From IMG/VR virus record IMGVR_UViG_3300037583_000050, positions 1 to 22,641 of that record: DNA of 22,641 nt; one strand, written 5' to 3'. Numbering within the stretch: position 1 is the first letter of the stretch; each line of letters starts with the position of its first letter. Shown here piece after piece: positions 1 through 20,893 of this stretch. Position numbers and translations under genes: made by a program. The stretch is from a virus. The notes under the pieces are model-generated. The model was not told the origin of the DNA. It made no database searches and worked only from the letters and a program-made list of their open reading frames with translations.

Positions 1-741
1 ATGGCGGGGGCAGGCGCGGCGGCGCGGTTGCATGTCCTGGCCAGAACACACCTTGGCGAGAACGCACACAGCGGGCATATATGGTTCATGTCATTGATTA
101 AGTCGAAAAAACGGGTCGCCGACCACGGCGAGGTGTTCACGCCGGAATGGCTGGTGGACGCCATGCTCGATCTCGTGAAGGATGAAGCCGAACGCATCGA
201 CTCGCGCGTTCTGGAGCCCGCCTGCGGCAGCGGAAATTTTCTCGTCCGGGTGCTGCAGCGAAAGCTGGCGAGCGTTGAGTTGAAGTTCGGAAAGTCGGCC
301 TTCGAGCGCCGGCACTTCGCGCTTCTCGGCCTGATGTGCACCTATGGCATTGAGCTTCTGGCGGACAACATCGCCGAATGCCGCGCCAATATGCTGGAAA
401 CGCTGGCCGATTACCTGCGCCTCGACGAGAGCGACGACCTTTACCGCGCCGCGTCCTACGTCCTGTCGCAGAACCTCGTGCATGGCGACGCGCTGACGAT
501 GAAGACGCATGATGGCCACCCGATCACCTTTGCCGAGTGGGGATACCTGGGCCGGGGCAAGTTCCAGCGGCGCGACTTCCGGCTCGACGTGCTGACAGGC
601 GCGTCGGCCTTCAGCGCCGAGGACTCGCTGTTCTCGCATCTCGGAAAGCATGAAATCTTCACGCCAACCAAGACCTACCCGCCCATGACGATCCGCGATC
701 TTGCCGCGCAGCTGGGGCCTGAACCGAAGGAGGTGGCATGA
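1..741 (+). CDS. N6-adenine DNA methyltransferase-like protein, first of a tandem pair (RM system)
   Basis: SAM-dependent methyltransferase-fold protein, probably the partner of the methyltransferase encoded directly downstream. The EVFTP motif (about residues 44-48) is followed by the SAM-binding motif I EPACGSGNFL (about residues 72-81) and a GIELL segment. No NPPY/NPPF catalytic motif IV is visible: after GDALT the chain runs into an FQRRDFRLDVL segment instead. It therefore looks non-catalytic on its own and may help form a heterodimer (inference). The frame is open from the ATG at base 1, but resemblance to methylases starts near the ATG at 88 (MSLIKSKKR), which is probably the true start. 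I list the whole open frame because upstream sequence is not visible. Its stop overlaps the next start as ATGA, after a strong AAGGAGG. Confidence 0.8.
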   Translation: MAGAGAAARLHVLARTHLGENAHSGHIWFMSLIKSKKRVADHGEVFTPEWLVDAMLDLVKDEAERIDSRVLEPACGSGNFLVRVLQRKLASVELKFGKSAFERRHFALLGLMCTYGIELLADNIAECRANMLETLADYLRLDESDDLYRAASYVLSQNLVHGDALTMKTHDGHPITFAEWGYLGRGKFQRRDFRLDVLTGASAFSAEDSLFSHLGKHEIFTPTKTYPPMTIRDLAAQLGPEPKEVA

Positions 742-2313
742 GCATGCAGGCCACCTTCGCCCTGCGCGGGCGCAACCCGGATGTGCTGAGCTGCATCGCC
801 AACCTCTCGAACGACGAGGTGTTCACCCCGCCCGAGTTCGCCAACCGGATGCTGGATACGCTGGCCGAGGCCTGGGCGGCGGACAACGGCGGCGCGAACA
901 TCTGGGCCGACAGCAGCGTCCGGTTCCTGGACCCCTGCACCAAGTCCGGCGTGTTCCTGCGCGAGATCACGCGGCGGCTGGTGAAAGGGCTGGAGCCGGA
1001 AATCCCCGACCTGCAGGAGCGGGTGGATCACATCCTGACCAAACAGGTCTTTGGCATCGGCATCACCCGGCTGACGGCCATGCTGGCGCGGCGCAGCGTC
1101 TATTGCTCGAAACACGCGACGGGGCCGCACTCCATCGCGAGGAGCTTCGACAACGACGATGGCAACATCTGGTTCGAGAGGACCGAGCACACTTGGGTGA
1201 AGGGCAGGTGCAAGTTCTGCGGGGCAAGCCAATCCACCTATGACCGCGGCGAGGGCATGGAAACCCATGCCTACGCGTTCATCCATACAGACGACATCAA
1301 GGCTCGCATGGCCGAGCTGTTCGGAGGCGACATGCAGTTTGACGTGATTATCGGCAATCCGCCGTATCAGTTGGCAAGCGACGGCGGGACGCGCGATGTC
1401 CCCATCTACCACAAATTTGTCGAACAAGCGAAAGCGTTGCAGCCCCGTTATTTGACCATGGTAATTCCGTCACGGTGGATGGCAGGGGGACTAGGCTTGT
1501 CTGAATTTAGAAGAGCCATGCTTGAGGATCAAAGAATTCGTGAGTTGGTCGATTACCAAAATGCCGCAGACATCTTTCCTTCGGTGGGGATTAACGGAGG
1601 AGCGTGCTATTTTCTCTGGGACGCAAACTATAACGGAGATTGTCGCTTTTCCAGCGTGCGTGGGAAAGAAGTTTGGGGCCCCGCGGTCCGCCACCTGAAC
1701 GAGTTTGATGTTCTCGTTCGCGACATTCATGGACTTGAGATATTGAGAAAGGTTCTCTCCCATCGGGAAGAGTCCATAAACACTATTTTGGCGAGAGATA
1801 AGGAGTTCGGATGGACTTCGAATTTCGATGGGTTCCACGATCAAGAACGCGATGGTGACGTGGCACTATACTACATTCGAAAAATGAAACGGCTCGTTGG
1901 TTACATTGAGCGGGAGAAAGTGACTAAGAGCGAGCACTTGATAGACAAATGGAAGGTTCTAGTTCCCGCTGTCGGCTCAGGGCGCGAAAGAGAGCGAAGC
2001 GGGGTCGATCTAGTTCTTGGACCTTCGCTGATAGCGCCCCCGCCATCAGTTTGCACGCAATCGTACTTATTCTTTTTTGCGGAATCGCGAGAAGCTGCTG
2101 AGAGTATTCAATCGTACTATGCGACGCGTTTTTTCCGTTTCTTGGTGTCTCTTCGTAAGATTTCGCAGCACGCAACACATTCTACTTATCAGTGGGTACC
2201 AAAACAGTCTTGGGATCGAACTTGGACCGACGCGGAACTTTATCAGAAATATGAGCTTAGCGCCGATGAAATCACGCATATTGAGTCTTTGATTCGTCCG
2301 ATGGAATTGGGGA

Positions 2314-2321
<8 letters not shown>
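738..2321 (+). CDS. Eco57I-like N6-adenine DNA methyltransferase of RM system
   Basis: This 527-residue protein is the catalytic modification subunit. It shows EVFTP (residues 27-31), a motif I variant FLDPCTKSGVFL (63-74), and the adenine-methyltransferase motif IV NPPY (207-210) within DVIIGNPPYQL. C123 and the C158-x2-C161 pair may form part of a metal-binding insert. The C-terminal half should hold the target recognition domain and ends with a WTDAELYQKYEL-type segment seen in this family. The ATG at 738 has AAGGAGG seven bases upstream at 727-733 and overlaps the previous stop. Base composition drops from about base 1330, right at motif IV, to about 2320 (29/60 G+C in 2041-2100 against 41/60 in 901-960). 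This fits replacement of the specificity half by recombination. The next gene overlaps by 8 bases. Confidence 0.9.

Positions 2322-4854
<2,533 letters not shown>

Positions 4855-5265: not shown

Positions 5266-5269
<4 letters not shown>
4859..5269 (-). CDS. Small HTH protein downstream of serine recombinase
   Basis: A protein of 136 residues with a plausible helix-turn-helix, roughly FATINELAEREGIAPSYMTR followed by VLRLTLLAPDIVEAIL (about residues 66-102). This resembles the HTH of ParB/KorB-like proteins. The longer open frame to 5425 was rejected because its extra 52 residues are an arginine-rich shadow of the recombinase gene. The chosen ATG (5267-5269) overlaps the recombinase TGA as ATGA, so translation is probably coupled. 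It may regulate or assist the recombinase operon (inference). Its stop lies only four bases from the stop of the convergent helicase gene. Confidence 0.7.
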
Positions 5270-6568
<1,299 letters not shown>

Positions 6569-6572
<4 letters not shown>

Positions 6573-7018
6573 GCGCGTCTCCGCGACTTCAACCCGAAGA
6601 ACACCCAGCCGTTCCAGCGGGTGCCGGTGATGGCGCGGGCGATGGCCGACAGAGACTTGTAGGGACGGCCCTGCCACTCGAAGCCCTCGGCGGTCACGGT
6701 GACGACATGCCCGATGCCCTGCCATTCGCGGATCAGCCGCGTGCCGGCGATGGGCTTGAAATCGGCCCGGACTCGGCTCTTCTTGCGGTCGCCGCCGTCG
6801 AGTTCCTCGCCGAGCCTTTCCAGCCGCTTCACCGTCTCTGGCTTCAACCCGCCATAGGCGAGTTCCTGGATGCGGTAGGCCAAGCGGCTTTCGAGGTAAC
6901 GCCGGTTGAAAGGCGGCGGCTCGCTGTCGAACAGCTCGCGCCACTTGGCCTTCAGCTCGGGCGTCTTCATGGTTTTGAGCGCGGCCAGGCGCGCGGGGAT
7001 GGCATCATGCGTGTTCAT
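6569..7018 (-). CDS. DUF2924 family protein
   Basis: A 149-residue protein matching the DUF2924 family, which commonly sits directly upstream of a serine recombinase in alphaproteobacterial elements. Recognisable features are an N-terminal [35 protein letters not shown] region, written here in parts as [25 protein letters not shown], and a later [10 protein letters not shown]. The C-terminus carries [19 protein letters not shown] and FFGLK, which look like a small DNA-binding or DNA-modification-associated fold. The molecular function is not known; a helper role in recombination is inferred from gene order only. Start ATG (7016-7018) overlaps the upstream stop as ATGA, and its own stop overlaps the recombinase start as ATGA. 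Confidence 0.85.
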
Positions 7019-7285: not shown

Positions 7286-7340
7286 GGAGCCCGCGTGGAT
7301 CGGCATTTGGGGACTCGACTCCCGGTTGTCCGGCGATGTA

Positions 7341-7355
7341 GAACATTAAGCGAAC
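7341..7355 (+). promoter_or_regulatory. Probable LexA (SOS) box, alphaproteobacterial type
   Basis: GAAC-ATTAAGC-GAAC matches the GAAC-N7-GAAC (GTTC-N7-GTTC) LexA operator established for alphaproteobacteria such as Rhodobacter and Caulobacter. It lies 26 bases before the ATG at 7382, in a locally AT-richer spot where a -10 element and transcription start would be expected. LexA bound here should repress the 7382-9527 gene pair until DNA damage. The site is also divergent to the recombinase operon. About one such 15-mer could occur by chance in a window this size, but the position favours function. Confidence 0.65.
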
Positions 7356-7381: not shown

Positions 7382-8617
7382 ATGGGTTCCGATCTCAAGA
7401 AATTCGTCAATCCGAAGTTCCTGAAGACCATCGATCTGGGACTCATCGAGGAGCTCTTCGCGCGCCATTTCGCGTCGGAGAACACGCCCATCGATTTCGA
7501 CGGCGAAGAACCCGCGGTCAGGGCCGCGCTCGCCCGGCATTTCGAAGGGGACATCACGGCCTGGAACGAGGGCATGGTGGCCGATCTTCACAGGGTGGCG
7601 GACCTCGGCACCAACGAGGGCATGCAGATCATCCTGAACGAGGCGCGGCGGCAGGGCGTGGCGCTCTATCCCGATCCCGAGGCTGACCATGAGGAATCGG
7701 TGCCCGCGAGACACGACCCGAAACATGTCGCGCTGCATACCTACCTGCATCACAAGAGCGTCTTCGAGGCGGCGGCCGACTTCCATGCGCTGCGGGCCCC
7801 GACAGCGCTGGCCGAGTTCCGAGGGCCGGAGCGCGACGTCAGCGCCGACCTGACCGCGGAGATCACCGAGGCATTCAAGGTAGCGGCGATGAAGCTCTTC
7901 GCTCGCGATCTCCAGGGTGAGTATTGCCGCCTCGGTCCCTACGAGGAGGACGGCGAGATCAACCTCGTCGTCAGCCACGGCGCCCCGGTCGCCACGACAC
8001 CCGTGGTGGACGGCGACAGGGAAAAGATCATCCCGCTGCGCGCCGTGAAATACGCCACGCTGCGCTACTCCCCGGCAGAGGCGCGTCTGTTCATCGGCGG
8101 GGTGGCGAAGGCCCAGCAGGCGGATCTCGCCGAGATCTTCGCAAGGCAGATACTTGGCCGCCCCGGCTTCTTCTCCGGCAAGGATGCCCGCGATCTCTAT
8201 ACCCTCGATCCGATCAGCGAGGCCGGCCCCGACTTCGCCTTCGATCATCGCTACGACGACCGCATCCTCGATGTGCGGATCGTGGCCGCCGCCGCGGACC
8301 AGTTCGAGTGGGACGAGGACGAGGGGAAATGGCGTTACGTCCGGAGCTGGGTGTCAAAGGACCCAGCCGGAGCGCTGCGGCACTTCGAGGGCAGCGAGGT
8401 GCGGTTCGGCAAGGGCTGGCGGCTCGGCGAGATATCGTTCCGCGTCTTTCTGAGGTCGGAGGGCAAGCGGCCTGCGCAGGTTACCGTGAAGCTGAAGCCA
8501 CCGGGAACGCTGGCGTTTCGCCGCACGCGGTTCGAGAACGCGATCCACACGCTGATCGCGCGCCACGGGCTGGAGAAGGACCGCGATGCTGACATGGTTG
8601 TGGACACGGCTGAGTGA
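7382..8617 (+). CDS. Hypothetical protein, first gene of a LexA-boxed pair
   Basis: A 411-residue acidic, apparently soluble protein that I do not recognise. No signal peptide, membrane segment, Walker motif, or clear nuclease motif is visible. Segments that look structured include KYATLRYSPAEARLFIGG (about residues 223-240), an FARQILGRPGFF stretch, and RYDDRILDVRIVAAAADQFEW (in parts RYDDRILDVRIV and ADQFEWDEDEG). The C-terminus ends with a helical RTRFENAIHTLIARHGLEKDR. The start is well supported by AGGAG at about 7371-7375. The following gene begins 32 bases inside this one, with its own GGAG, so the two are co-expressed and probably work together. A damage-inducible role is inferred from the LexA box only. 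Confidence 0.75.
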   Translation: MGSDLKKFVNPKFLKTIDLGLIEELFARHFASENTPIDFDGEEPAVRAALARHFEGDITAWNEGMVADLHRVADLGTNEGMQIILNEARRQGVALYPDPEADHEESVPARHDPKHVALHTYLHHKSVFEAAADFHALRAPTALAEFRGPERDVSADLTAEITEAFKVAAMKLFARDLQGEYCRLGPYEEDGEINLVVSHGAPVATTPVVDGDREKIIPLRAVKYATLRYSPAEARLFIGGVAKAQQADLAEIFARQILGRPGFFSGKDARDLYTLDPISEAGPDFAFDHRYDDRILDVRIVAAAADQFEWDEDEGKWRYVRSWVSKDPAGALRHFEGSEVRFGKGWRLGEISFRVFLRSEGKRPAQVTVKLKPPGTLAFRRTRFENAIHTLIARHGLEKDRDADMVVDTAE

Positions 8618-9527
8618 CGGCGGCCCGCAGGTCTCGATCTCGGGCCGGGCGTTGCGCCGTTTTCCAGACCGCGCAGTCGAGCGTCTTCTGCGGGCGCGTG
8701 TGCTGATCGAGCATCCCAAGGCGGACAGCTGGTCGGTCTGCGCGCATTGCGAGTGCGGTCTGGATGTGCGCCCGATCCGGCAGGTCGACAGCGAACTGCG
8801 CGCATGCTGTCCGCACGATGCGGCGGAGGACGTGGTGCTTGAGCCGGACGACCTTCGCCGTTTCGGTATTGACGCCGACAACCTGATCTCTGCCATGGCG
8901 GCATCCGCGGGATTTCCGGCGGCAGCCACCGTTGTCGCGGACGGGCTTTGGCTCCTGGGGCGGCTGCCCACGGGCATCTGCGTGTTTGTCTGCCGCGACG
9001 CGGATCTGCTGATGGCGCCTGCCACCATGCTCACGGCCAAAATGGCCGCCGGATCGGCGCCCATCACCGTCATCGCCGCCGAGGTCGACCCGGCAACCGA
9101 GCTGCATTTGCGGGCGGCCGGCATCGAAGCGCGCTCGCTGGCCGAATGCGTCCTGGTGGACGAGCACGGTATGGAAAATATCGCGTTTGACCGACTTTCG
9201 CCGATCGCCGTCACCGCGCCTCGCCTCGTGCTGAACCGGAGCCGCCAGTCGGTGGTGCTCGATGGACGCCGCCTCGATCTCACGCCGCAGATGTTCGCAC
9301 TGATCCGGCTTTTCGCGGAACAGGCCGGGCAGCGCGATCCGCTGCTGCGCAAGGAGACCATCGACGCGCGGACCGGGCGTCCGGCGAACGAGATCGTTCG
9401 GGATCTGCGCAAGGCTCTGGTCGGATGCGGCCTGTCCCGGTCGGCCGCCGATGCCCTGATCGTCACCGTGCGCGGCTACGGCTATCGCCTCGGCATTGCT
9501 CCCGCTGAGGTGGCCGTCGAGGACTGA
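8586..9527 (+). CDS. Cysteine-cluster protein with C-terminal OmpR/PhoB-type winged helix
   Basis: A 313-residue protein with a likely DNA-binding C-terminus. Residues about 215-304 look like an OmpR/PhoB winged helix: a DGRRLDLTPQMFALIRL strand-helix start and the characteristic closing wing VRGYGYRLG. Near the N-terminus, C52, C55, C57, C74 and C75 (VCAHCECG and LRACCPHD) could bind zinc. The middle region (about 85-205) is unassigned and may be a sensory or dimerisation domain. There is no phosphoacceptor receiver domain before the wing, so this is not a classical response regulator. It overlaps the previous gene by 32 bases. It probably regulates the pair or the downstream operon (inference). 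Confidence 0.78.
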   Translation: MLTWLWTRLSDGGPQVSISGRALRRFPDRAVERLLRARVLIEHPKADSWSVCAHCECGLDVRPIRQVDSELRACCPHDAAEDVVLEPDDLRRFGIDADNLISAMAASAGFPAAATVVADGLWLLGRLPTGICVFVCRDADLLMAPATMLTAKMAAGSAPITVIAAEVDPATELHLRAAGIEARSLAECVLVDEHGMENIAFDRLSPIAVTAPRLVLNRSRQSVVLDGRRLDLTPQMFALIRLFAEQAGQRDPLLRKETIDARTGRPANEIVRDLRKALVGCGLSRSAADALIVTVRGYGYRLGIAPAEVAVED

Positions 9528-9598
9528 ACCCTCCGCACACAATTCACACACAACAAGCACACGCCAAACACACCGAAAGCGTCGCGGGGTCCGGCAGT

Positions 9599-9626
9599 CT
9601 TGGAACAACGGCAACGATGTTCCGAG
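9599..9626 (+). promoter_or_regulatory. Inverted repeat overlapping the ribosome binding site of the sigma-like gene
   Basis: CTTGGAACA and TGTTCCGAG (core GGAACA-N10-TGTTCC at 9602-9623, plus three further pairs including one G-T wobble) form an imperfect palindrome. It ends in the likely GAGG ribosome binding site at 9624-9627, ten bases before the ATG at 9637. As DNA it could be an operator; as RNA it would be a hairpin partly hiding the ribosome binding site. Confidence 0.45.
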
Positions 9627-9636
9627 GTACCACGAC

Positions 9637-10230
9637 ATGCATTCCCCGATTTCCCCCGCCGAGCTATCCACGCTGATCGACGAAGCCGATGCCGCCGCGC
9701 GGCGGCTGCATCGCAAGCTGGCATTGCCCGTCGCCGATCTCGACGATCTTCGCCAGGACCTGCTCGTCGACCTGATCTGCCGGCTCCCCGCCTACGATCC
9801 CTCGCGCGGCAGCGTCGGAGCCTTCGCCAACATCGTCCTGCGCAACCAGTGTTCGCGGATCGCCATCCGGCACCACCGCCAGCGTCGGGCGCAGGGTGGG
9901 TCGCTGCTCTCGCTCGACGTGCCGCTGGCCGGCTCCCGTGAACCCATTGGCGCGACGCTGAGCGAGGACGATGGCCTTGCCGCCTGGCACGGACAGGACC
10001 GCGATGCGCGGGCGGACAGCATGACCCGGGAATCCCTGCGGTCAGTGCTGGCGCGGTTGCCTGAGGCCGATCGCCGGTTCTGTCGCGCTCTGGCCCATCG
10101 TTCCGTGACCGCGCTGGCCGCCGACGGCTTCGGCAGCCGCTCCACGCTCTACCGACGCCTCGCCGACCTCCGGCTCGTTTTCACCGCCCACGGGCTCGGT
10201 CCCTCCTGGGACGATCTCGTCGCGGCGTGA
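9637..10230 (+). CDS. Sigma-70-like RNA polymerase sigma factor
   Basis: A 197-residue ECF-like sigma factor. Residues about 30-85 resemble region 2 (DLDDLRQDLLVDLICRLPAY, then GAFANIVLRNQCSRIAIRHH), which binds core polymerase and the -10 element. Residues about 133-185 resemble region 4, with an LRSVLARLPEADRRF helix and an HTH around SVTALAADGFGSRSTLYRRL. The region 4 HTH is close to that of generic phage regulators, so a sigma-like regulator is also possible. The open frame extends back to 9496, but the ATG at 9637 was chosen because it follows GAGG and the upstream part is low-complexity and would overlap the preceding gene. It heads the replication operon and may drive its own or downstream promoters (inference). 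Confidence 0.78.
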   Translation: MHSPISPAELSTLIDEADAAARRLHRKLALPVADLDDLRQDLLVDLICRLPAYDPSRGSVGAFANIVLRNQCSRIAIRHHRQRRAQGGSLLSLDVPLAGSREPIGATLSEDDGLAAWHGQDRDARADSMTRESLRSVLARLPEADRRFCRALAHRSVTALAADGFGSRSTLYRRLADLRLVFTAHGLGPSWDDLVAA

Positions 10231-10252: not shown

Positions 10253-10603
10253 ATGTTCATGGGCAACACCCCCTTCATCACCGTCCGCGCCGCGCGCCCG
10301 CTCACGGATATGGAGTTCTGCGCCTGGGTGGGCCAGGCCGCGCCCGGCGACCGGCTGGAATACCACCGGGGTTTTCTCGGCATCGACGTGATGCCGGGCA
10401 TGTCGACCCTGTCCGACAAGGACCGACAGCGCCTCGCGGGGCTCGCCTCGGCCGCCTTCCGCGCCTGCGAGGCGGGGCTCGTGCATCTCGTGCAGGAGCG
10501 GCTCGGCCCCGACCGCTTCGCCTATCTCGCCATCGCCCGGCCGAAACCCCGCGCGGCTCCCATGCCGCTCGAACGCCTGCTTGCCGAGCCGGAGGCCGCC
10601 TGA
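10253..10603 (+). CDS. Small conserved phage-type hypothetical protein
   Basis: A 116-residue soluble protein without a motif I can assign. It contains an FCAWVGQAAPGDRLEYHRG segment and a central LAGLASAAFRACEAGLVHLVQ helix (in parts AGLASAAFRACEAG and LVHLVQERLG). The protein ends in a proline/alanine-rich tail. A strong AGGAGG lies five bases before the ATG at 10253. A second ATG at 10259 is possible. Small proteins of this kind recur near recombination genes in alphaproteobacterial prophages. Its stop touches a possible early start (TGATG) of the next gene. Confidence 0.72.
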   Translation: MFMGNTPFITVRAARPLTDMEFCAWVGQAAPGDRLEYHRGFLGIDVMPGMSTLSDKDRQRLAGLASAAFRACEAGLVHLVQERLGPDRFAYLAIARPKPRAAPMPLERLLAEPEAA

Positions 10604-10638
10604 TGGCCCTGCCATTTCCATCCATCGGAGATCCCGAC

Positions 10639-11121
10639 ATGCCGCAGACCGACAATGCCCCCCGTTTCGATGATCTCGACCGGCTTTCGCTGGGCGACAT
10701 TGCCGCGCTGCCCGCGGAGATGCTCCTGGACCTGCAGGAGGCGGCGCGCGCCGAGACCGCTCGGGTGAAGCGCCTGCGCGAGAGGCTCGAGGCCGCCATC
10801 GCGCGGCGCTATGGCGCGGCGGCGGAGGCCGAGCGCGCGGCCCGGGACAAGACCGCCGGCACGGTCAGGTTCGAGGACGGCGACGTCGTGGTGGTCGCGG
10901 ATCTGCCCAGGAAAGTCTCCTGGGACCAGGCGCGGCTGGCGGCCATGGCCGAACGCATCCGCGCCGCCGGCGACGACCCGGCCGAGTATCTCGACATCAC
11001 GTACCGCGTTCCCGAGCGGCGGTTCTCGGCCTGGCCAGCGGCCCTGCGCGAGGGCTTCGCGGAGGCCCGCAGCGAGACCACCGGCAAACCCGTGTTCCGG
11101 CTCGAACCCCGAGCCCGGTAA
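10639..11121 (+). CDS. Conserved phage-type hypothetical protein with N-terminal coiled coil
   Basis: About 160 residues. The N-terminal part is a helical, charged stretch (LQEAARAETARVKRLRERLE) likely to form a coiled coil. It is followed by a conserved core with GTVRFEDGDVVVVADLPRKV and SWDQARLAAMAERIRAAGDD, and a closing GKPVFRLEP. Proteins of this kind commonly lie next to RecA-like ATPases in alphaproteobacterial phage replication modules; the function is not known. I chose the ATG at 10639 because GGAG lies eight bases upstream. An alternative start at 10603 overlaps the preceding stop as TGATG and would add 12 residues. Confidence 0.75.
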   Translation: MPQTDNAPRFDDLDRLSLGDIAALPAEMLLDLQEAARAETARVKRLRERLEAAIARRYGAAAEAERAARDKTAGTVRFEDGDVVVVADLPRKVSWDQARLAAMAERIRAAGDDPAEYLDITYRVPERRFSAWPAALREGFAEARSETTGKPVFRLEPRAR

Positions 11122-11122
11122 C

Positions 11123-11197
11123 GCGCGGCGGCGGGACGCCCGCGCGGCAACGCCGGGCAGGTTCCCCTTCGGCACCCGGTCACCCCCGCCGCCGCGC
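11123..11197 (+). other. Structured leader: perfect 13-base inverted repeat before the Sak4-like gene
   Basis: GCGCGGCGGCGGG (11123-11135) and CCCGCCGCCGCGC (11185-11197) are perfectly complementary. They enclose a second stem, CCGGG (11153-11157) with CCCGG (11175-11179). Together they form a nested hairpin starting two bases after the stop of the preceding gene and ending 26 bases before the next ATG. It may be an attenuator, a processing site, or a translation-control element. No T-run follows, so a simple terminator is unlikely. High GC raises the chance of fortuitous pairing, but a perfect 13-base stem is notable. Confidence 0.5.
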
Positions 11198-11223
11198 TCC
11201 CCCACAACGCATTGGAGAACGAC

Positions 11224-12081
11224 ATGAGCATCCGCATCATCACCGCCGACGAACGGCTCTCGGCCGCCGAGAACAAGACCTCGCTCGCGATCTTCGGCCC
11301 GCCCGGCGTCGGTAAGACCACGCTACTGACAACGCTGCCCGCCGAGGAGACCGTCTGTCTCGATCTCGAGGCCGGCCTCAAATCCGTGCAGGACTGGCGC
11401 GGGGACTCGATCCCGGTGCGCAGCTTCACCGACTTTCGCGACCTTGCGGTGTTGATCGGCGGGCCGGATCCGGCGCAGCATCCCAAATCCTGGTATGGCG
11501 CCGAGCGCCACGCCTGGCTGCAGGCCGAGCACCGAGAGAGCGGGGTCGAGGCGTTTCTGGCCGGCAAACGCATCATCTTCGTCGACAGCATCACCGATCT
11601 CACCCGCCAGGCGATGACCTGGGCGCGCCAGCAGCCCGAAGCGTTTTCCGAGCGCACGGGCAAGGCGGATGTGCGCGGGGCCTACGGGTTGCTCGGACGC
11701 GAGGTGATCCAGGCGCTCAAGCATCTCCAGCACGCGCGCGGCAAGACGGTGATCTTCGTGGGCGTGCTGGAAAAGGCAACCGACGAGTTCGGCGCGGTTA
11801 CCTGGCAGCCGCAGATGGAGGGCTCGAAGGCCGGGCGCGAACTGCCCGGCATCGTCGACCAGGTGGCCTCGATGCAGTTCTTCGCCCCGGACGGTGAAGG
11901 CGGCTGGGCGTTTGACGAGGCCGCCACCGAACGCCGGCTCGTCTGCAAGTCCGGCAATCCCTGGGGGCTGCCTGCCAAGGACCGCTCGGGCCGGCTGGAC
12001 ATGACCGAGCCGCCCGATCTCGGCGCGCTGCTGGCGAAGATCGACGGACGCCCGGTCTCGCAACCCTCCTTCCCATCCTGA
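11224..12081 (+). CDS. Sak4-like RecA-fold ATPase (phage recombination)
   Basis: A 285-residue P-loop ATPase. Walker A is GPPGVGKT (residues 25-32) and Walker B is RIIFVDS with D121. An acidic LDLEAGL follows strand 2. The size, phage context and next-door SSB-like gene fit the Sak4 group of single-strand annealing/RecA-core proteins (AAA_24-like), which support recombination of phage DNA. Assignment to Sak4 rather than another phage AAA ATPase is a family-level inference. The ATG at 11224 has GGAG about seven bases upstream; a TTG at 11212 is less likely. It lies in the same operon as a Cas4-like nuclease, which could supply the resection step. Confidence 0.8.
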   Translation: MSIRIITADERLSAAENKTSLAIFGPPGVGKTTLLTTLPAEETVCLDLEAGLKSVQDWRGDSIPVRSFTDFRDLAVLIGGPDPAQHPKSWYGAERHAWLQAEHRESGVEAFLAGKRIIFVDSITDLTRQAMTWARQQPEAFSERTGKADVRGAYGLLGREVIQALKHLQHARGKTVIFVGVLEKATDEFGAVTWQPQMEGSKAGRELPGIVDQVASMQFFAPDGEGGWAFDEAATERRLVCKSGNPWGLPAKDRSGRLDMTEPPDLGALLAKIDGRPVSQPSFPS

Positions 12082-12103
12082 CCTCAAGCAAAGGAACCAC
12101 GAC

Positions 12104-12823
12104 ATGAGTTATGATCTGAATGACGCGCAGCCGCAGATGGCCCCCATCGGCGAGCTGATCCCCGACGGCACATTTGCCAAGCTGCGCCTGACCATCCGTC
12201 CGGGCGGCGTGAATGGCGCCACGACGATGGATGCCAAGCTCCTGAAGGCCTCGCAGTCGAGCGACGCGAAGATGCTCGATTGCGAGTTCACCATCCTCGA
12301 GGGTCCGCATGCACGGCGCAAGTTCTGGCAGAGCTTCACGGTGGCCGGCGGCAAGCTCGACGAGAAGGGCCAGTCGATCGGCTGGAAGATCTCGAAATCG
12401 ACCTTTCGCGCCATCGTCGACAGCGCTCTGGGTCTCGATCCGCGCGACGAGAGCCCGGCCACCAAGGCCAAACGCGTGCTGCCCGGTCTCAAGCAGCTCG
12501 ACGGCATCGTGTTTGCCGCGCGCATCATGGTGGAGCCCGCCTCCAACCCGAAATACCGCGACCAGAACCGGATCGCCAATGTCGTCCTGCCCGACGAACC
12601 GCATTACGCGGCGATCATGGGCGGCGAAACCGTTCCGCCCGAGCCGGTCAATGCCCCGCCGCGCAAGGCCACGGCCGCGCCGGCCTCGGGCTGGCAGGCG
12701 CCGTCGCCGGAATGGGGCGCGCCGCAGGCCCAGAGCGCGCATACGGCGCCAGCCGGTAACCCGGATCAGGGTGCTTCCGGCGGCTCGGCCCCGTCTGCCA
12801 TGCCCGCCTGGCTCAATGGCTGA
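12104..12823 (+). CDS. SSB-like (OB-fold) phage DNA-binding protein
   Basis: A 239-residue protein. The N-terminal about 170 residues look like a beta-rich single-strand DNA-binding domain, with IPDGTFAKLRLTIRPGG, a central EFTILEGPHARRKFWQSF and a later VFAARIMVEPA. After about residue 185 comes a low-complexity Ala/Pro/Gln tail ending AMPAWLNG. A flexible tail with a hydrophobic tip is typical of proteins that recruit partners, as in SSBs. The sequence match to classical SSB is weak, so the function is inferred from architecture and from lying just after the Sak4-like ATPase. AAGGA precedes the ATG. Confidence 0.65.
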   Translation: MSYDLNDAQPQMAPIGELIPDGTFAKLRLTIRPGGVNGATTMDAKLLKASQSSDAKMLDCEFTILEGPHARRKFWQSFTVAGGKLDEKGQSIGWKISKSTFRAIVDSALGLDPRDESPATKAKRVLPGLKQLDGIVFAARIMVEPASNPKYRDQNRIANVVLPDEPHYAAIMGGETVPPEPVNAPPRKATAAPASGWQAPSPEWGAPQAQSAHTAPAGNPDQGASGGSAPSAMPAWLNG

Positions 12824-12853
12824 CGGGCACGGCCGAATGCCGGAGGTGAACCG

Positions 12854-13345
12854 ATGGCGCGTCGCCCGCGAAGGAAGACAGGCCCCCGGCGCAGACCGCG
12901 TGTCCGTAAACCGCGCGCTCAAGGCGTCGGACGCCCGGCAGGGTCGGAACAGCGCCGCCCATCCGAGGCGGAACCCCCGCTCTGCGCGGTCTGCATGCGC
13001 GAGGCGCGTGGCTTCGGCTACTGCCACGAGCTGAGGCACGACCGCCACCCCGATTACCGCTTCTGTTCGCGCCGGTGTCAGGACATCGGCGCGGACATCG
13101 CCAGAAGGAACAACGGAATGATCGACAAGACCGCGCGCGAGCGGCAGGCGATCCGCGACGCGCGGGCGTCTTTCGCCGAGGCGCTCAATTCGCTGGGGCT
13201 CATGGAGCCCTTTCTTCACCGCACGCCCGAGGAGATCGATTGCCTGATCGAGGCGGCGGTGACCGGATACATCGACAGCATGGGCAGGCAGGCCGCGCGC
13301 AAGGAGCGCACCGGCAACGTGCTCGACGACCCGATCCCATTTTAG
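12854..13345 (+). CDS. Zinc-finger protein, DUF6511-like
   Basis: A 163-residue protein with an Arg/Lys-rich N-terminus (about residues 1-36) likely to contact nucleic acid. It then has a zinc-binding pattern with C44, C47, C57, H58, C71 and C75 (LCAVCMREARGFGYCH, then FCSRRCQD). The C-terminal half is helical (IRDARASFAEALNSLGLMEPF, in parts). The CxxCxREARGFGY plus FCSRRCQ arrangement resembles DUF6511, a phage-associated family of unknown function. A strong GGAGGTGA lies at 12842-12849. The next start follows after 10 bases. Confidence 0.72.
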   Translation: MARRPRRKTGPRRRPRVRKPRAQGVGRPAGSEQRRPSEAEPPLCAVCMREARGFGYCHELRHDRHPDYRFCSRRCQDIGADIARRNNGMIDKTARERQAIRDARASFAEALNSLGLMEPFLHRTPEEIDCLIEAAVTGYIDSMGRQAARKERTGNVLDDPIPF

Positions 13346-13355
13346 GACGGCTCCC

Positions 13356-14153
13356 ATGATCGACCTCAATCACAAATCCGGTTTCATCTATGGCGCCGGC
13401 GCGCCGCGCCCGCCAATCGCCGAGGCTGTCTCGGCCGCCATCGACGCGGCGCTGTCGGCGCGCCACCGCGTCGAGCGCCCCCGGACCTATGTCAGTTCAT
13501 CGGGTCTCGGCCGCCACTGCCTGCGCCAGATCCAGTTCGATTACCTCGCGGTGCCAAAGGACGAGGGCCAAGACTTCGCGCCGCGCACGCTGCGCATCTT
13601 CGAGGCCGGTCACCGGGCCGAGGACATGGTGGCGGGCTGGCTGAGGCTCGCCGGGTTCGACCTGCGCACCGAGCGCGCCGACGGGCGGCAACACGGCTTC
13701 GAGGCGCTCGGTGGACGGTTCAAGGGCCATATCGACGGCTGCCTCGTCTCGGGCCCGGTCGCCATGGACTACCCCGCGCTGTGGGAGAACAAGGCGCTCG
13801 GCGCGTCCAGCTGGAAGGACGTGGTCAAGCGCGGCGTCGGCGTGGCGCGGCCGGTCTATGCCGCGCAGATCGCCCTTTATCAGGCCTATCTCGATCTGCC
13901 GAACCCGGCGCTCTTCACCGCGCTCAACCGCGACACGCAGGAATTGCACACCGAGCTTGTCCCGTTCGATGCGCGTCTTGCACAGGAGATGTCCGACCGT
14001 GCCGTCGCCGTCGTCCGCGCTTCCGATGGCGGGGAATGGCTGCCGCGCGCCGCAGCCGAGCCCACCGCGGTCCTCTGCCGGGGCGGCATGGCGGCCGGCA
14101 AATGGCATGCCCCCTGCGCTTGGGCCGAACGCTGCTGGAGTGCGCGCCCATGA
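13356..14153 (+). CDS. Cas4-like PD-(D/E)XK nuclease with four-cysteine cluster
   Basis: A 265-residue RecB/Cas4-type exonuclease. Visible active-site elements are H86 (in AGHRAED), D127 (GHIDG), E144 and K146 (WENKALG, the ExK of PD-(D/E)XK), and a Q171-x3-Y175 helix (AAQIALYQAYL). One cysteine before the core (C55 in GRHCLRQ) and three at the C-terminus (C241, C254, C260) match the Cas4/AddB layout for a 4Fe-4S cluster. No cas genes or CRISPR repeats are nearby, so a role in phage-type end resection is more likely than spacer acquisition. The stop overlaps the next start as ATGA. Confidence 0.85.
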   Translation: MIDLNHKSGFIYGAGAPRPPIAEAVSAAIDAALSARHRVERPRTYVSSSGLGRHCLRQIQFDYLAVPKDEGQDFAPRTLRIFEAGHRAEDMVAGWLRLAGFDLRTERADGRQHGFEALGGRFKGHIDGCLVSGPVAMDYPALWENKALGASSWKDVVKRGVGVARPVYAAQIALYQAYLDLPNPALFTALNRDTQELHTELVPFDARLAQEMSDRAVAVVRASDGGEWLPRAAAEPTAVLCRGGMAAGKWHAPCAWAERCWSARP

Positions 14154-14899
14154 CCCCGGACGCCTATGAACTCAAGCGCCTCCTGCGCGCACATCGTGCC
14201 CGGTTCTGGTGCGCCGACCTGCTCGAAGCGGTGGAGTTCGCGCCGATCTACTTCTTCGGCGATCAGACCGCCTTCGACAGCGAGGACGTCGACCGGGCGA
14301 TGCCCCGCGTGTTGACCGGCCCGCTCCGTCTGCCGCACCCGGCGGTGATCTTCGAAGTGCGCGAGCAAGGCCCGTCGCCTTCGGGCCTGATCGTCTGCGC
14401 CCGCGCCGCCGGCGACATCGTCGAGGCCGCGTTCCTCATGCGCAAGCGCGCGCCGAACGGCTGGACGGACAGCCTGGTGCGGGGCTGGATGCATCCCGAC
14501 GGCAAGGCCGAGATCGAGGGCAATCCGGCCGAGCGAGATGATGGGGTGGTCCGCGGTCACGGCGAAGTCGCCGCAGGCATCGTCTGGCGCGCGCTGACCA
14601 TCCTCGGCGCCTCTCCGGAAATCCGCGACCGCAAGCTGTCGCCTTCGAAACGGTCCCGCCTGTCCCGGGACGGCGTGCGCGGGTGGGTCTGGCATCAGGT
14701 CTCGATCAACCCTGGGCGCTTGCGTGCGGTGAGCACGCCACGGGGCGGCACCCATTCCTCTCCCCGCTGGCACATCCGGCGCGGGCATTGGCGGCAATTG
14801 GCCGACGGGCGCCGCGTGTTCGTGCGCGAATGCGAGGTGGGCGACCCGACCCGGGGCGGCGTCGTGAAGGATTATAGAGTGGAGGCCGGCCAGCCATGA
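14150..14899 (+). CDS. Conserved phage hypothetical protein
   Basis: A 249-residue protein without an assigned function. The C-terminal region has a pattern often seen in phage and plasmid hypothetical proteins: GGTHSSPRWHIRRGHWRQL followed by GRRVFVRECEVGDP and VVKDYRV. Its histidine and arginine residues suggest nucleic-acid contact, but nothing shows catalysis. The chosen ATG overlaps the preceding TGA (ATGA) and has GGAG upstream; the longer open frame to 13781 only shadows the nuclease gene. The stop overlaps the helicase start as ATGA. Confidence 0.75.
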   Translation: MTPDAYELKRLLRAHRARFWCADLLEAVEFAPIYFFGDQTAFDSEDVDRAMPRVLTGPLRLPHPAVIFEVREQGPSPSGLIVCARAAGDIVEAAFLMRKRAPNGWTDSLVRGWMHPDGKAEIEGNPAERDDGVVRGHGEVAAGIVWRALTILGASPEIRDRKLSPSKRSRLSRDGVRGWVWHQVSINPGRLRAVSTPRGGTHSSPRWHIRRGHWRQLADGRRVFVRECEVGDPTRGGVVKDYRVEAGQP

Positions 14900-16215
14900 C
14901 AGACGTTACACCGTCACCCGCACAGGCGGCGGCGATCCGCGCCATCCGGGAGTGGTTCGAAACCCGTGCCCATGAACAGCAGGTGTTTCGCCTCTTTGGC
15001 TATGCGGGATCCGGGAAAAGCACGGTTCTGAAGTTCGCGCTCGACGAGCTCGGCCTCTCGCCCCACCGCAGCACCAGGGACGGAACCTGTGTGCCCGGCG
15101 TGGTCACCGCCACCTTCACCGGCAAGGCGGCGCTGGTGCTGACCCGCAAGGGCACGCCCGCGCGCACCATCCACAGCCTGATCTATTCGGCGATCGAGGC
15201 CACCGAGGAGGAGATCGAGGCGGCGGCGCGGAAAATCCGCGAAGCGGAGGATGCCGCGCGCCGCCTGACCGGGTTCGAGCGCACCGCGGCAAACGCCGGG
15301 ATCGAGGTCATGCGCCAGGCGCTCTCGGCCATGAAACACCCCCGTTTCGCACTGAACCCGCAGAGCGACGCCGCCGACGCCCGCCTCATCGTGCTCGACG
15401 AGGTGTCGATGGTGGGCGAAGAGATGGCGCGCGATCTGATGAGCTTCGGCAAGCCGATCCTGGTGCTCGGCGATCCGGGGCAGTTGCCGCCGATCAAGGG
15501 CGAAGGCGCGTTTACCCGCGACGCGCCCGACGTGATGCTGACCGAGATCCACCGCCAGGCCGCCGAGAGCGCGATCATCCGGCTGGCGACCATGGCGCGC
15601 AAGGGCGAGCCGATCGGGTTCGGCAGCTACGACACACATGTTGCCAAGCTGCGCAAGGGCGATATCACGCCGGAACAGGCCTTGCGCGGCGGTCAGCTGA
15701 TCTGCGGGATGAACGCCACGCGGCTTGAGCTCAATAACGCCATGCGGGCGGCGGCAGGCTTCGGCGACTCGTTCCTGCCGACGGGTCCGGGCGAGAAGAT
15801 CGTCTGTCTGAAGAACCAGAACGATCTCGGCCTGATCAACGGGATGTTCGTCACGCTCGAGGACATCGTCGACGAGGGCAGCCTCCATTTCTCGGCTGTT
15901 GTGACCGACGAGGAGGGCCGGCGGATCGGCCCGCTTGACGCCGAAGGGCGCCCGGGCCGCCTGCGCATCTACAAGGGGCATTTCGAGGACCATATCGCCT
16001 TTGACAGGCATCGCCACGATCGGGACTGGCGCGCGAAGAAGCGTCTGACCGAGGCAACCTTCGGCTGGGCGATCACCGCCCACAAGGCACAAGGATCTCA
16101 GTGGGAGAATGTCATCGTCTGGGACGACGGGCTGGGGCGCACCGAGCTTGACCGGCGCCGCTGGCTCTATACCGCGATCACCCGCGCCGAGCGCGGGCTG
16201 GTGCTTCTGGCCTGA
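14896..16215 (+). CDS. RecD/Dda-like SF1B DNA helicase
   Basis: A 439-residue 5'-3' DNA helicase of superfamily 1B. Motifs in order: I GYAGSGKST (residues 35-43), Ia ATFTGKAAL, II VLDEVSMV, III GDPGQLPPI, IV TEIHRQ, V AITAHKAQGSQW and VI YTAITRAERG. The length is close to phage Dda-type helicases and shorter than cellular RecD2. It lies between the Cas4-like nuclease region and the primase-helicase, as expected for phage replication or recombination. A moderately helical insert (about 96-140) follows motif Ia. Start ATG overlaps the previous stop (ATGA). Confidence 0.92.
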   Translation: MTDVTPSPAQAAAIRAIREWFETRAHEQQVFRLFGYAGSGKSTVLKFALDELGLSPHRSTRDGTCVPGVVTATFTGKAALVLTRKGTPARTIHSLIYSAIEATEEEIEAAARKIREAEDAARRLTGFERTAANAGIEVMRQALSAMKHPRFALNPQSDAADARLIVLDEVSMVGEEMARDLMSFGKPILVLGDPGQLPPIKGEGAFTRDAPDVMLTEIHRQAAESAIIRLATMARKGEPIGFGSYDTHVAKLRKGDITPEQALRGGQLICGMNATRLELNNAMRAAAGFGDSFLPTGPGEKIVCLKNQNDLGLINGMFVTLEDIVDEGSLHFSAVVTDEEGRRIGPLDAEGRPGRLRIYKGHFEDHIAFDRHRHDRDWRAKKRLTEATFGWAITAHKAQGSQWENVIVWDDGLGRTELDRRRWLYTAITRAERGLVLLA

Positions 16216-16224
16216 GGGGGCGCG

Positions 16225-18804
16225 ATGATCGATCTCAACGATGTGCCGACCCCACGCGGCCGCCATGACCTCGGCGGCATCCGCGCCCGACTGGCCGCGA
16301 CCGCCGCCGACTGGCTGCCTGGACTCTTCCCCGAGGCGCGGCGCGCGTCCGATGGCCGATCCCTGCGCTGCGCCGATCTCTCGGGCCGCCGGCCGAGGAA
16401 AGTGGGCTCCTGCGTCATCCATCTCGACGGACCCTATGCCGGCTGGGGCTTCGATCATGCCACGGGCGAGCGCGCGGGGCCCATCGACCTGATCGCGCAG
16501 GCAACCGGGCTTTGCGATGGCACGCTCTTCAAGGAAGCGGCGCGGCTTGCGCGCATGGAGATGCCTCCTCGTAGGCCTGTGCCACGCCCGAAGCCCGATC
16601 ATTCCGCCGAGATCGCCCGGATCCTCGCGGGCGCCGTTCCGCTCGCCGGCACCCCGGGCGAGGCCTATCTGCGTGCCCGCGGTCTCACCGATCCCAACTC
16701 GCCCGACCTTCTGTTCCATCCCGATCTCGCGGACTTCGAAAGCCGCCGCGGCTGGCCCGGGCTGGTGGCCATTCTGCGTCTTGCCGACGGAGAACCCGCG
16801 CCGGGCATTCACCGGACCTTCCTGCTGGACGACGGAAGTGCGAAGGCGCCCGCCGGCAAGAAGATGCTGGGATCGGTCAGGGGCGCAGCCCTCCGTCTGT
16901 TCCCGTTGGCCGAAGACGGCCATCTCGGCGTGGCCGAGGGGATCGAGACCGCGCTGGCCGCGCATGCGCTCTTCGGCGTGCCCGTCTGGGCGGCGCTCTC
17001 CGCCGACGGGCTGGCTCGGTTCCAGTGGCCCGAGGGCACCCGGCGGGTCACCATCTTCGCCGATGCGGGCGATGCCGGCCGTCAGGCGGCGGCCACGCTG
17101 GCGGACAGGCTCAACCTCGCTGACATCCCGAACGCGATCGTCCGTCCGCTCCATGGCGACGACTTCAACGACGATCTGCTGCGGGGGGCAACGGCCGGGG
17201 ATTACGCGCGGGACACCGGGGAAACTGACCGCACCGTGGACGCCGTTGCTGAAGATGAGCGCGACGCGGCAAAGGTCATGCCCGCCACCGACGATCCCGG
17301 CACCCTGATCGCCGCCGCCGAGGCGCTCACCAACCCGCCCGACATCGAGGCCCTCGGCCGGCTGCTCGGGCGCGTCGCGCTTGCCCGGCTCGAGCCCTTG
17401 CCTGAGCGCCAGGTTCTCTCGCGCATCAAGGCGGCCACCGGCATTGGTGTCGCCATCCTCGAAAGACAGCTTGGCGAGTTGCGCCGGCGCGTGAATGTCA
17501 CCGGCGATCCCAACGCCCGGATTCCGAAGCCCCTGTGGTTCAACCGCCTGCTGCTCGACATGGCCGGCACGCCCGAACGCAACGAGGCCAATGTCATCAC
17601 CGCGCTCTCCTCCGACCCGGCCTTCGCCGGCGTGCTCGCCTTCGACGAGTTCGCCCAAGGCATCGTCGTGCGCCAGCCGCTGCCGTGGGACACGGCATCC
17701 TCTAGCTTCCCGCGCCCCTGGGAGGATGCCGACGACATCCGCACCGCCGAATGGCTGCAGCTGCGCGGCATCAATGTCGCCCCCGCCGTGGTCGGCCGCG
17801 CCGTCGGCGCCGTCGCCCGTGAAATCCGCATCCACCCGGTTCGCGACTGGCTCGACACCCTGAAATGGGACGGCACGCCCCGGATCGAGACCTGGACCAG
17901 CACCTATCTCGGCGCCGAGCCCACCGCATTCAACCACACCATCGGCGCGCTCTGGCTGATCTCGGCCGTCGCCCGCATCTACCGCCCCGGCGTGAAGGCC
18001 GACCACATGCTGATCCTCGAGGGGCCACAGGGCGCGCGCAAGTCCACTGCGATCAAGGTGCTGGCCGGCGAGGAGTGGTTCACCGACGAGTTGCCCGAGC
18101 TCGGCTCCAAGGACGCGGCGCTGCACATGCAGGGCGTCTGGATCGTGGAGATCGCCGAACTCGACGCAATCGGCCGCGCCGAGGTCTCGCGCATCAAGGC
18201 GTTCCTGACCCGCACCACCGACCGCTTTCGCCCGCCCTATGGCCGCTACACCGTCGAGGTGCCGCGCCAATGCGTCTTCGCCGGCACCGTGAACCCCGAC
18301 ACCTATCTGCGCGACGAGACCGGCAACCGCCGCTTCTGGCCCCTGCGCTGCGGCACCATCGACATCGCGGCGCTTGCCCGCGACCGCGACCAGCTCTGGG
18401 CCGAGGCCGTTCACCGTTTCCGCGCCGGCGCGATCTGGTGGATCGACGATCCGGAGCTGTTGGCAGAAGCCCGCGAGGAGCAGGATCGCCGGTATCAGGC
18501 AGATGCCTGGGATGACCTTATCGAGCACTGGTTGACCCACGATATCCGCACGGTCTCCGACGGGTACCCTGACTACGGCAATTCCCGGACGGAGAGCGTG
18601 CCGCGCCCCGAGTCGCTGGCCGACGTGTCGGTCGGCGAGATCCTCGAGGAAGCCATCGGGCTCGAGCCCGGGAGATGGACCCGGGGCGACCAGATGCGGG
18701 TGTCGGCCTATCTCAAGGCGAACGGCTGGGTGCGGTATCGGAGGCGGGATGGGGGTGGGCGCGAGGCGTCGCGGGAGTGGCGGTATCGGAGGGAAGATAG
18801 GTAG
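16225..18804 (+). CDS. Toprim primase fused to VapE/D5-type helicase
   Basis: An 859-residue replication protein. The N-terminal half holds a Toprim-like catalytic core: E238 in VAEGIETALAA and the DxxD pair D280/D283 in IFADAGDAGRQAA, as in phage primases with a DUF7146-type arrangement. The C-terminal half is a virulence-associated E (VapE) SF3-like ATPase: Walker A EGPQGARKST (K606) and a Walker B-like WIVEIAELD. Arginine-rich stretches follow, including RFRPPYGR and FAGTVNPDTYL. It probably primes and unwinds the element's DNA. GAGGGGG precedes the ATG at 16225. The operon ends here, followed by stem-loops and a convergent defence cassette. Confidence 0.9.
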   Translation: MIDLNDVPTPRGRHDLGGIRARLAATAADWLPGLFPEARRASDGRSLRCADLSGRRPRKVGSCVIHLDGPYAGWGFDHATGERAGPIDLIAQATGLCDGTLFKEAARLARMEMPPRRPVPRPKPDHSAEIARILAGAVPLAGTPGEAYLRARGLTDPNSPDLLFHPDLADFESRRGWPGLVAILRLADGEPAPGIHRTFLLDDGSAKAPAGKKMLGSVRGAALRLFPLAEDGHLGVAEGIETALAAHALFGVPVWAALSADGLARFQWPEGTRRVTIFADAGDAGRQAAATLADRLNLADIPNAIVRPLHGDDFNDDLLRGATAGDYARDTGETDRTVDAVAEDERDAAKVMPATDDPGTLIAAAEALTNPPDIEALGRLLGRVALARLEPLPERQVLSRIKAATGIGVAILERQLGELRRRVNVTGDPNARIPKPLWFNRLLLDMAGTPERNEANVITALSSDPAFAGVLAFDEFAQGIVVRQPLPWDTASSSFPRPWEDADDIRTAEWLQLRGINVAPAVVGRAVGAVAREIRIHPVRDWLDTLKWDGTPRIETWTSTYLGAEPTAFNHTIGALWLISAVARIYRPGVKADHMLILEGPQGARKSTAIKVLAGEEWFTDELPELGSKDAALHMQGVWIVEIAELDAIGRAEVSRIKAFLTRTTDRFRPPYGRYTVEVPRQCVFAGTVNPDTYLRDETGNRRFWPLRCGTIDIAALARDRDQLWAEAVHRFRAGAIWWIDDPELLAEAREEQDRRYQADAWDDLIEHWLTHDIRTVSDGYPDYGNSRTESVPRPESLADVSVGEILEEAIGLEPGRWTRGDQMRVSAYLKANGWVRYRRRDGGGREASREWRYRREDR

Positions 18805-19033: not shown

Positions 19034-19933
19034 TTACCGATGCCCGCTGTTCCAGTAGCGCCGCACAGCTGCGAGAAACGTCTGATAGTCCTGTATGTTC
19101 CAGCAGACATCTGAGTTCTCTCGAATCAACCAGTAGAGATCATTCGCGCAGGACAGTTCGTTTGCATTGCATCGCTCCAGCCAATACAGGTAGTTCTCGA
19201 ATGTCTGCTGGTATCCTGCAACGAAGTTCTGGTTCGGGACACTCCACAACATTCCCTCGAGAAAGTATGACGGCGCGACGCCTTTCTCAAGGAAGCCCTC
19301 GTCGACCATTGCGTTGCGCATGTTCTTCAGCACCCGGACGTTCGGCTTGAAACGGTTGCTGGTAGCTTGATGCTTCGATGTGCAGTTCTGCTTGTGCTGC
19401 CTTGGGAAGTTGACAATCCGGTCCCCGTCAGCCGTGATGAACGATATCCCCACATGATAACGGTTATCCGAAGGCGAATGATATGAGGTGTACCGATGGT
19501 GCTCGATGCATGCCAAAACGTCTGCGTTGCGCCGATTTCCTTCCCCCGGAACGGCAATTGCTTTTCGACCCGGGGTCACACCGCCGCCGAAATTCACCCT
19601 CAGCCAAGCTACTACTTCAGATTTGAATTGCTGGAAGCCGTATTTTGCGGGTGAGCGGTTCGCTTCATACGCTTCCTTCTCCGCTGGATCGAGCCCAGAT
19701 ATATCGCTGTTGAAGACGTCGGTTAGACAGATCACCACATCTACATCGCTCTCGGAGCCTCGGACATTTGTGTCGTTCCCATAGGAGCCCTGGAGGAAAA
19801 TGTCGATCCCGCGTCCTGCATAAGGAGCATCAGGATGCTCGAGCACTGACTTTATCGACTGGTAGGTCGCTGCGGATTGCTGCTGCGACCCGACATGGGA
19901 CCAAGTTTCAAGCTGGTTCTCTGAAATCGCCAT
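19034..19933 (-). CDS. CBASS CD-NTase (cyclic oligonucleotide synthase)
   Basis: A 299-residue cGAS/DncV-like nucleotidyltransferase that should make a cyclic nucleotide signal on phage infection. It shows the GS motif (QGSYGN, residues 48-53), the catalytic pair SDVD (D63 and D65), and a likely third aspartate D138 (RNADVL). PSYFLEGMLWSVPN (about 221-234) is typical of the C-terminal helical part. I prefer the ATG at 19933, preceded by GAGG with six-base spacing, over the upstream TTG at 19945. The gene starts 8 bases after the patatin stop, so they form one operon. No Cap2/Cap3 genes are present, which points to a short type I CBASS. The clade and product cannot be told by eye. Confidence 0.93.
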   Translation of the reverse strand: MAISENQLETWSHVGSQQQSAATYQSIKSVLEHPDAPYAGRGIDIFLQGSYGNDTNVRGSESDVDVVICLTDVFNSDISGLDPAEKEAYEANRSPAKYGFQQFKSEVVAWLRVNFGGGVTPGRKAIAVPGEGNRRNADVLACIEHHRYTSYHSPSDNRYHVGISFITADGDRIVNFPRQHKQNCTSKHQATSNRFKPNVRVLKNMRNAMVDEGFLEKGVAPSYFLEGMLWSVPNQNFVAGYQQTFENYLYWLERCNANELSCANDLYWLIRENSDVCWNIQDYQTFLAAVRRYWNSGHR

Positions 19934-19941
19934 TTCCCACC

Positions 19942-20865: not shown

Positions 20866-20893
20866 CGGAAGCACGCTCCAAGTGTTATCCAGA

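Follow-up and report, generated by a model that had tools for sequence, protein, structure and literature searches.

The gene pair P1-P2 is probably a switch that starts a temperate phage upon SOS induction; in it, P2 would activate a sigma-like gene (SIG) and the early operon. We found the pair in a window of 22,641 nucleotides, which is the whole stretch of DNA that was analysed (IMG/VR record IMGVR_UViG_3300037583_000050). The window contains the gene pair, a LexA box, a repeat array and a fixed -10 element, and the array tracks the DNA-binding domain of P2 among related phages. The first-pass annotation had offered a damage-sensing switch as one explanation of the pair. The fixed LexA box and an array that follows the type of P2 DNA-binding domain support this idea well. 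The features that compose the proposed switch are the following.

7312..7321, plus strand: GACTCGACTC, a tandem GANTC pair whose start lies 29 nt before the LexA box
7341..7355, plus strand: LexA box GAACATTAAGCGAAC, with the alphaproteobacterial site pattern
7382..8617, plus strand: P1, 411 aa, no known family; its middle is weakly RdgC/CENP-N-like in a low-confidence model
8586..9527, plus strand: P2, 313 aa, with a helical/winged N-terminus, a Cys cluster, an alpha/beta middle and an OmpR-type winged helix
8739..8810, plus strand: Cys cluster of P2 (residues 52-75)
9213..9500, plus strand: P2 residues 210-305, an OmpR/PhoB-type winged helix by profile and fold
9536..9573, plus strand: four CACAC units at 9536, 9547, 9558 and 9569, spaced by exactly 11 bp; the array that P2 is proposed to bind
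9595..9600, plus strand: CAGTCT, the -10 element of the promoter that P2 is proposed to activate; second base A and sixth base T in 97/97
9602..9623, plus strand: GGAACA..TGTTCC, an inverted repeat that spans the predicted +1, beside the SIG Shine-Dalgarno (GAGG, 9624-9627)
9637..10230, plus strand: SIG, sigma-70-region-2-like (Sigma70_r2, 26.8 bits against a cut-off of 24), the proposed first target of P2

The proposed mechanism is as follows. In the lysogen, host LexA would occupy the GAAC-N7-GAAC box of the P1 promoter, and P1-P2 would stay off. DNA damage would remove LexA, and the overlapping P1 and P2 would be made together. P2, a receiver-less OmpR/PhoB-type activator, would then bind head to tail to the four 11-bp repeats located just past its own gene. 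The fourth repeat would lie over the -35 position, and from there P2 could bring RNA polymerase to the SIG promoter. SIG and the replication genes behind it would be switched on in this way.

Both open reading frames lie where the first-pass annotation placed them, and they share the 32 nt from 8586 to 8617. The relatives of P1 show 24-93% identity and those of P2 27-92%, with the same gene order. By this comparison of sequences, P1 and P2 are genuine genes whose relatives keep their order. The overlap was followed in 92 rows (the window plus L047-L137, some near-identical). It measures 29-47 nt in 88 of them, which is wherever both genes are intact. The four exceptions lack P2 at a contig end (L068) or beside a P1 fragment (L077), or carry a truncated (L073) or frameshifted (L079) copy. 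Likewise, among 292 genomes from the order of Jannaschia, P1 is present in 12 and P2 in 9, all of them within those 12. The three genomes with P1 only have P1 fragments (G010, G234) or a copy cut by the contig end (G023). Frequent occurrence of one gene apart from the other, which the first-pass annotation had named as a refutation of the unit, is not seen in these genomes.

The first-pass annotation also reported an SOS box. Alphaproteobacterial LexA sites are given as GTTCN7GTTC or GAACN7GAAC in PMC3091678. The sequence GAACATTAAGCGAAC fits this pattern. Of 77 distinct upstreams, 75 keep GAAC-N7-GAAC at a distance of 39-44 nt before P1. The two without the exact box are L073, in which P2 is truncated too, and L126, which is one mismatch off. 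In newly fetched, more distant upstreams, the box is present in 32/36 (35/39 if three contigs seen before are included), and two of the four box-less cases are one mismatch away. The two most distant relatives (24-29% identity) have no LexA box upstream of P1. Control by LexA is thus not universal, because these two and some other upstreams lack the site. In one of the two, L305 (G254), the P1 upstream carries a perfect palindrome, GCAAACCGGTTTGC, which is perhaps the site of another repressor.

P2 combines parts of different character. Its C-terminal ~95 residues are an OmpR/PhoB-type winged helix according to profile and fold. Trans_reg_C scores under the Pfam cut-off in this part (20.6 vs 26.2 bits). 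The profile of RstA matches it with an E-value of 2e-4, and its fold matches BaeR with Z 12.9 and rmsd 2.2 A over 92 aligned residues. No receiver domain family of Pfam was found in P2 or in 28 relatives. These results bear out the earlier description of an OmpR-type wing without a receiver. The middle of P2 aligns only loosely with receivers (VanR, 97-304, at 12.3 A). The middle of P2 has no fold match of its own among the matches listed, which the winged helix fills.

The first 110 residues of P2 are its best-conserved part across 29 relatives. Here lies the cysteine-rich N-terminus that had been noticed before. C52, C57 and C75 are invariant in the 29 sequences and C55 is almost so; the cluster is absent in the two most distant relatives, L305 and L306. 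The cluster is probably a structural zinc site, because distant orthologues lack it. It shows no sign of damage sensing, which would lie with host LexA and RecA. The label "unrecognised" given to the pair at first remains apt for P1, for the P2 N-terminus and for the P2 middle; the P2 C-terminus is of OmpR type. P1 and P2 are two undescribed protein families.

Between P2 and SIG, an array scoring at least 24/30 at the 11-bp period is present in 55 of 63 distinct regions (mean 27.5/30). We left L067, L068, L073 and L077 out of this count, as they had no SIG match or were too short. Among the other periods from 6 to 18, six regions gave an array at period 9 and the rest gave none. In 20 rounds of mononucleotide shuffles, no array of at least 24/30 appeared; shuffles of this kind were also the controls for leader folding and for the distant-relative tests. 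Eight regions fall below the threshold, and six of these have a first spacing of 10 bp. Distant loci fetched later show the array in 35/39 (36/42 with three contigs seen before). A strict-pattern scan of 19 loci found it in 7, each time only in front of SIG. Of the remaining 12, three (L062, L063, L122) are one unit short and nine are flanking pieces without P2. The relatives at 24% and 29% identity have four repeats as well, CGGGAG with spacings of 11, 11 and 11 and AGGTTC with 11, 10 and 11. No shuffle matched these CGGGAG or AGGTTC arrays; at a strict 11 bp, AGGTTC is not significant (6 of 300 shuffles do equally well).

This arrangement resembles the sites of known OmpR/PhoB relatives. The Pho box consists of two 11-nt units bound by such a regulator (PMC4415409), and the majority of ArcA sites have between three and five units, in most cases spaced by 11 bp (PMC3798270). 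P2 shares with PhoB, ArcA and BaeR the C-terminal winged helix, and tandem 11-bp repeats are its proposed sites. It differs from them in having no receiver and in its Cys-cluster N-terminus and unassigned middle, and the proposed synthesis under LexA control would replace phosphorylation.

The P2 DNA-binding domain occurs in several types among otherwise similar phages, and the repeat unit changes with it. In 121 distinct P2/array pairs, the unit is CACAC (49), CCCAC (64), CCCAT (5), CCCAG (2) or CGCAC (1). After dereplication of 111 rows to 48, we placed the units on two trees. The P1 tree requires 9 changes of unit, and the tree of the P2 C-terminal domain requires 4, the minimum possible. 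By this comparison, the unit goes with the DNA-binding domain of P2 and not with the backbone of the phage. At residue 269, which lies in the recognition helix, 7 of 8 CACAC representatives have E and 19 of 20 CCCA-type representatives have D. The exceptions are L076, with G, and L119, whose E breaks the E/D rule. Linkage explains part of this tracking, because the array adjoins the 3' end of P2; the periodicity of the array and the fold of P2 are support independent of linkage. These natural swaps of domain and repeat unit offer a ready set for studying how OmpR-type recognition helices read DNA.

Two small groups of loci differ in the surroundings of the array. L119, L122, L123, L127 and L129 have ~0.8 kb extra between P2 and the array, which still lies directly before SIG. 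In L110, L111 and L115 the last P2 codons run into the array, and it is preserved.

To examine the sequence downstream of the repeats, we located the array with a search pattern, which succeeded in 97 of 111 distinct leaders. With bases numbered from the fourth unit, all 97 have A at position 27 and T at position 31, and neither was part of the search pattern. GGCA, also outside the pattern, starts at position 24 in 80/97. We take these two invariant bases for -11A and -7T in a -10 element. The predicted +1 is then at window position 9607 and the fourth repeat at -38 to -34. Class II activators occupy the -35 region. The proposed SIG promoter has no other -35 and a -10 far from consensus. That P2 recruits RNA polymerase is suggested because the fourth repeat covers -35 and the promoter has only a minimal -10.

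The same features could be read in the opposite sense. P2, as a repressor on the array, would keep SIG and the early operon silent in the lysogen, and P1 would be an antirepressor made in the SOS response. The array does lie directly upstream of SIG, and an antirepressor controlled by LexA follows a known logic, for Tum of coliphage 186 is reportedly one. However, P2 is on the same LexA-controlled transcript as P1, so the lysogen would not make this repressor. In addition, a fourth repeat at -38 to -34 with no other -35 occupies the place of an activator. We regard repression by P2 as unlikely, and activation is the reading that we retain.

The role of P1 is less evident. P1 has no matches in Pfam, NCBIfam or PADLOC, as expected from the first description of a protein without recognisable domain, and PDB sequences gave nothing usable. 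A PHROG search returned a single match, 18 residues long. The structures of P1 and P2 were predicted from alignments A1/A2 (18 rows), shallower than A3/A4 (29 rows), and the P1 model is poor (mean pLDDT 60.5). In this low-confidence model, residues 139-272 align with CENP-N (Z 7.7, 4.1 A, 104 residues) and with RdgC (Z 6.5, 4.9 A, 110 residues). A fold search of the model in a viral library gave nothing at E 0.001. These alignments, and a conservation that is higher in P1 than in P2, could mean that P1 is the working SOS protein. It would be RdgC-like, would bind DNA and act on RecA or recombination, and P2 would be only a local regulator. Nevertheless, the model is poor, Z values below 8 may be chance, and no sequence match accompanies them. 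This role for P1 seems improbable to us. Within the proposed switch, P1 is probably the obligate partner or modulator of P2.

The proposed switch can be compared with phage GIL01 of Bacillus thuringiensis. Host LexA keeps the GIL01 lysogen, and the phage activator gp6 lies over the -35 of the next promoter (PMC6182141). Similarly, the promoter of P1-P2, the first lytic genes, has a LexA box (75/77), and an activator site is predicted here over the next -35. GIL01 differs in that it also needs gp7 together with LexA and in that gp6, a homologue of LexA, acts on late genes. In P1-P2, on the other hand, the proposed activator is OmpR-like, is paired with P1 and faces a sigma-like gene. Thus, lysogeny kept by LexA is itself known from GIL01, and P1-P2 would be a LexA-controlled prophage switch built from undescribed protein families. 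No paper describing this switch was found in the open-licence PMC literature.

GafA and GafYZ, which activate gene transfer agents in Rhodobacter and Caulobacter, also show some likeness (PMC11150451, PMC9638019). GafYZ is a gene pair, GafA has weak sigma-factor-like parts, and the elements are prophage-like and alphaproteobacterial. However, GafA matches are annotated as DUF6456, GafA itself has a DnaA-like N-terminus, and the gene order of P1, P2 and SIG differs.

The inverted repeat in the SIG leader recalls another phage gene. Its arms vary between lineages and the pairing is kept. Insertions put the arms out of register in alignment A5, and the leaders were folded one by one. In 84 of 89 distinct leaders, at least 2 nt of the Shine-Dalgarno-like tetramer are paired in the predicted fold. 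The predicted openness of the ribosome site has a mean of 0.10 in read-through RNA and 0.26 in RNA from the predicted +1. In the latter, 41 of 91 leaders are more open by >0.2, and 7 of 91 are less open. Long early transcripts of T4 gene e are poorly translated, and late ones that lack the 5' portion are translated well (PMC3014915). In T4 gene e, a hairpin covers the ribosome site and a later start omits its 5' arm. The SIG leader resembles it because the predicted +1 falls inside the 5' arm of the predicted hairpin. From the folding, a translation gate of this kind is a weakly supported possibility. Alternatively, the inverted repeat may be a DNA operator.

A second sequence accompanies the LexA box in part of the relatives. 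GANTCGANTC, the tandem GANTC pair, is present in 63 of 107 distinct upstreams, in two lineages, and absent from the groups of 64% and 48% identity. It is a single copy in the scanned loci that carry it, at a fixed distance from the LexA box. CcrM is an adenine methylation activity linked to GANTC sites. Methylation at this pair is a possible input to the P1 promoter. We also considered GACTCGACTC as a P2 operator and rejected it: it is the same across differing P2 domains, it is missing in the 64% and 48% groups, and it occurs once in each scanned locus that has it.

A wider reading joins these elements, and we put it forward tentatively, as rather doubtful. LexA would be the sole lock, and the phage would have no repressor of lytic entry of its own. 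A three-step relay would run from LexA through P1-P2 to SIG, and the four 11-bp sites in front of SIG would co-evolve with P2. Read-through RNA would be silent, with the hairpin over the SIG ribosome site. The transcript driven by P2 would start inside the 5' arm and could not form the full hairpin. In the two lineages with the doubled GANTC at the first promoter, methylation could tie induction to replication. Peptidase_S24 was found in 0/6 and HTH_3 in 1/6 (G002) virus records, which are linear and may be incomplete; a repressor could therefore have escaped notice. These counts fit a LexA-only lock as in GIL01.

If the switch is true, it would give a working model for how a widespread, never-isolated prophage group leaves the chromosome, and it would give roles to two gene families that are blank in databases. 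All its steps are open to testing in culturable hosts.

The neighbourhood of the pair agrees with the mobile and replication setting noted initially, with a serine recombinase and DUF2924 on one side and an AAA_24 ATPase, a RecD-like helicase and a VapE/Toprim primase on the other.

5266..6429, minus strand: large serine recombinase (Resolvase, Recombinase and zinc ribbon), the conserved upstream neighbour
6569..7018, minus strand: DUF2924 gene (E 4e-54), beside the recombinase
10253..18804, plus strand: early/replication genes g10253, phrog_2480, AAA_24, phrog_2300, DUF6511, RecD-like helicase and VapE/Toprim

The conserved order is recombinase (on the opposite strand), P1, P2, SIG, g10253 and then the replication genes. 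In temperate tailed phages of Alphaproteobacteria, P1 and P2 open an early module that is conserved. The 45-kb record G002 (L138/L139) encodes small and large terminase, portal, protease, major head, tail and tail-tip proteins. It also carries the recombinase and P1-P2 (L122); the 22.6-kb window stops before the structural genes. The element is considered a tailed temperate phage because G002 has terminase, portal, head and tail genes. The recombinase copy of the window is frameshifted, with its 5' end in another frame within 6366-6944. The split of this gene (5266-6944) reflects either an error in sequencing or an inactive integrase.

We searched for relatives in both viral and genome contigs. 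The 31 genome-contig loci with relatives are mostly from Rhodobacterales, plus Aquibium, Acuticoccus, Pannonibacter and others. The hosts include Ruegeria, Paracoccus, Gemmobacter, Tabrizicola, Roseovarius, Jannaschia and Pannonibacter, among others.

The proximity of tandem repeats to replication genes, together with two DNA-binding-like ends in P2, would also suit a replication origin with iterons and P2 as its initiator. Against it, the array is followed by no AT-rich stretch; the 23 nt past the fourth unit have a mean of 73% G+C. The OmpR-type fold and an invariant -10 at fixed spacing also disagree with an origin, and we consider it very unlikely.

The first-pass annotation had named an undescribed defence system as its other explanation, and a cargo defence or toxin-antitoxin pair lodged in the prophage would have real cargo defence genes (a CBASS pair and a restriction-modification set) for company in the window; however, P1-P2 has no PADLOC match, was never found outside the core early module, where it was always beside the recombinase and SIG, keeps its LexA box at a fixed place, and gave zero matches among 50,697 deposited phage records (P1, P2 and SIG, at E 1e-3) and 72,556 plasmid records (P1 only), so we give this explanation hardly any credit.

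Finally, these cargo genes have features of their own. The CBASS-like pair at 19034-20991 (minus strand) consists of an oligonucleotide cyclase (NCBIfam DS2_2) and a patatin phospholipase (DS2_1), between VapE and a DUF6362 gene, and is probably cargo defence. The restriction-modification set at 1-4854 (plus strand), left of the recombinase, includes two N6-methyltransferase-like genes and a large ResIII-like protein. Its genes 2 and 3 correspond to different portions of a single type IIG model, with the order swapped.
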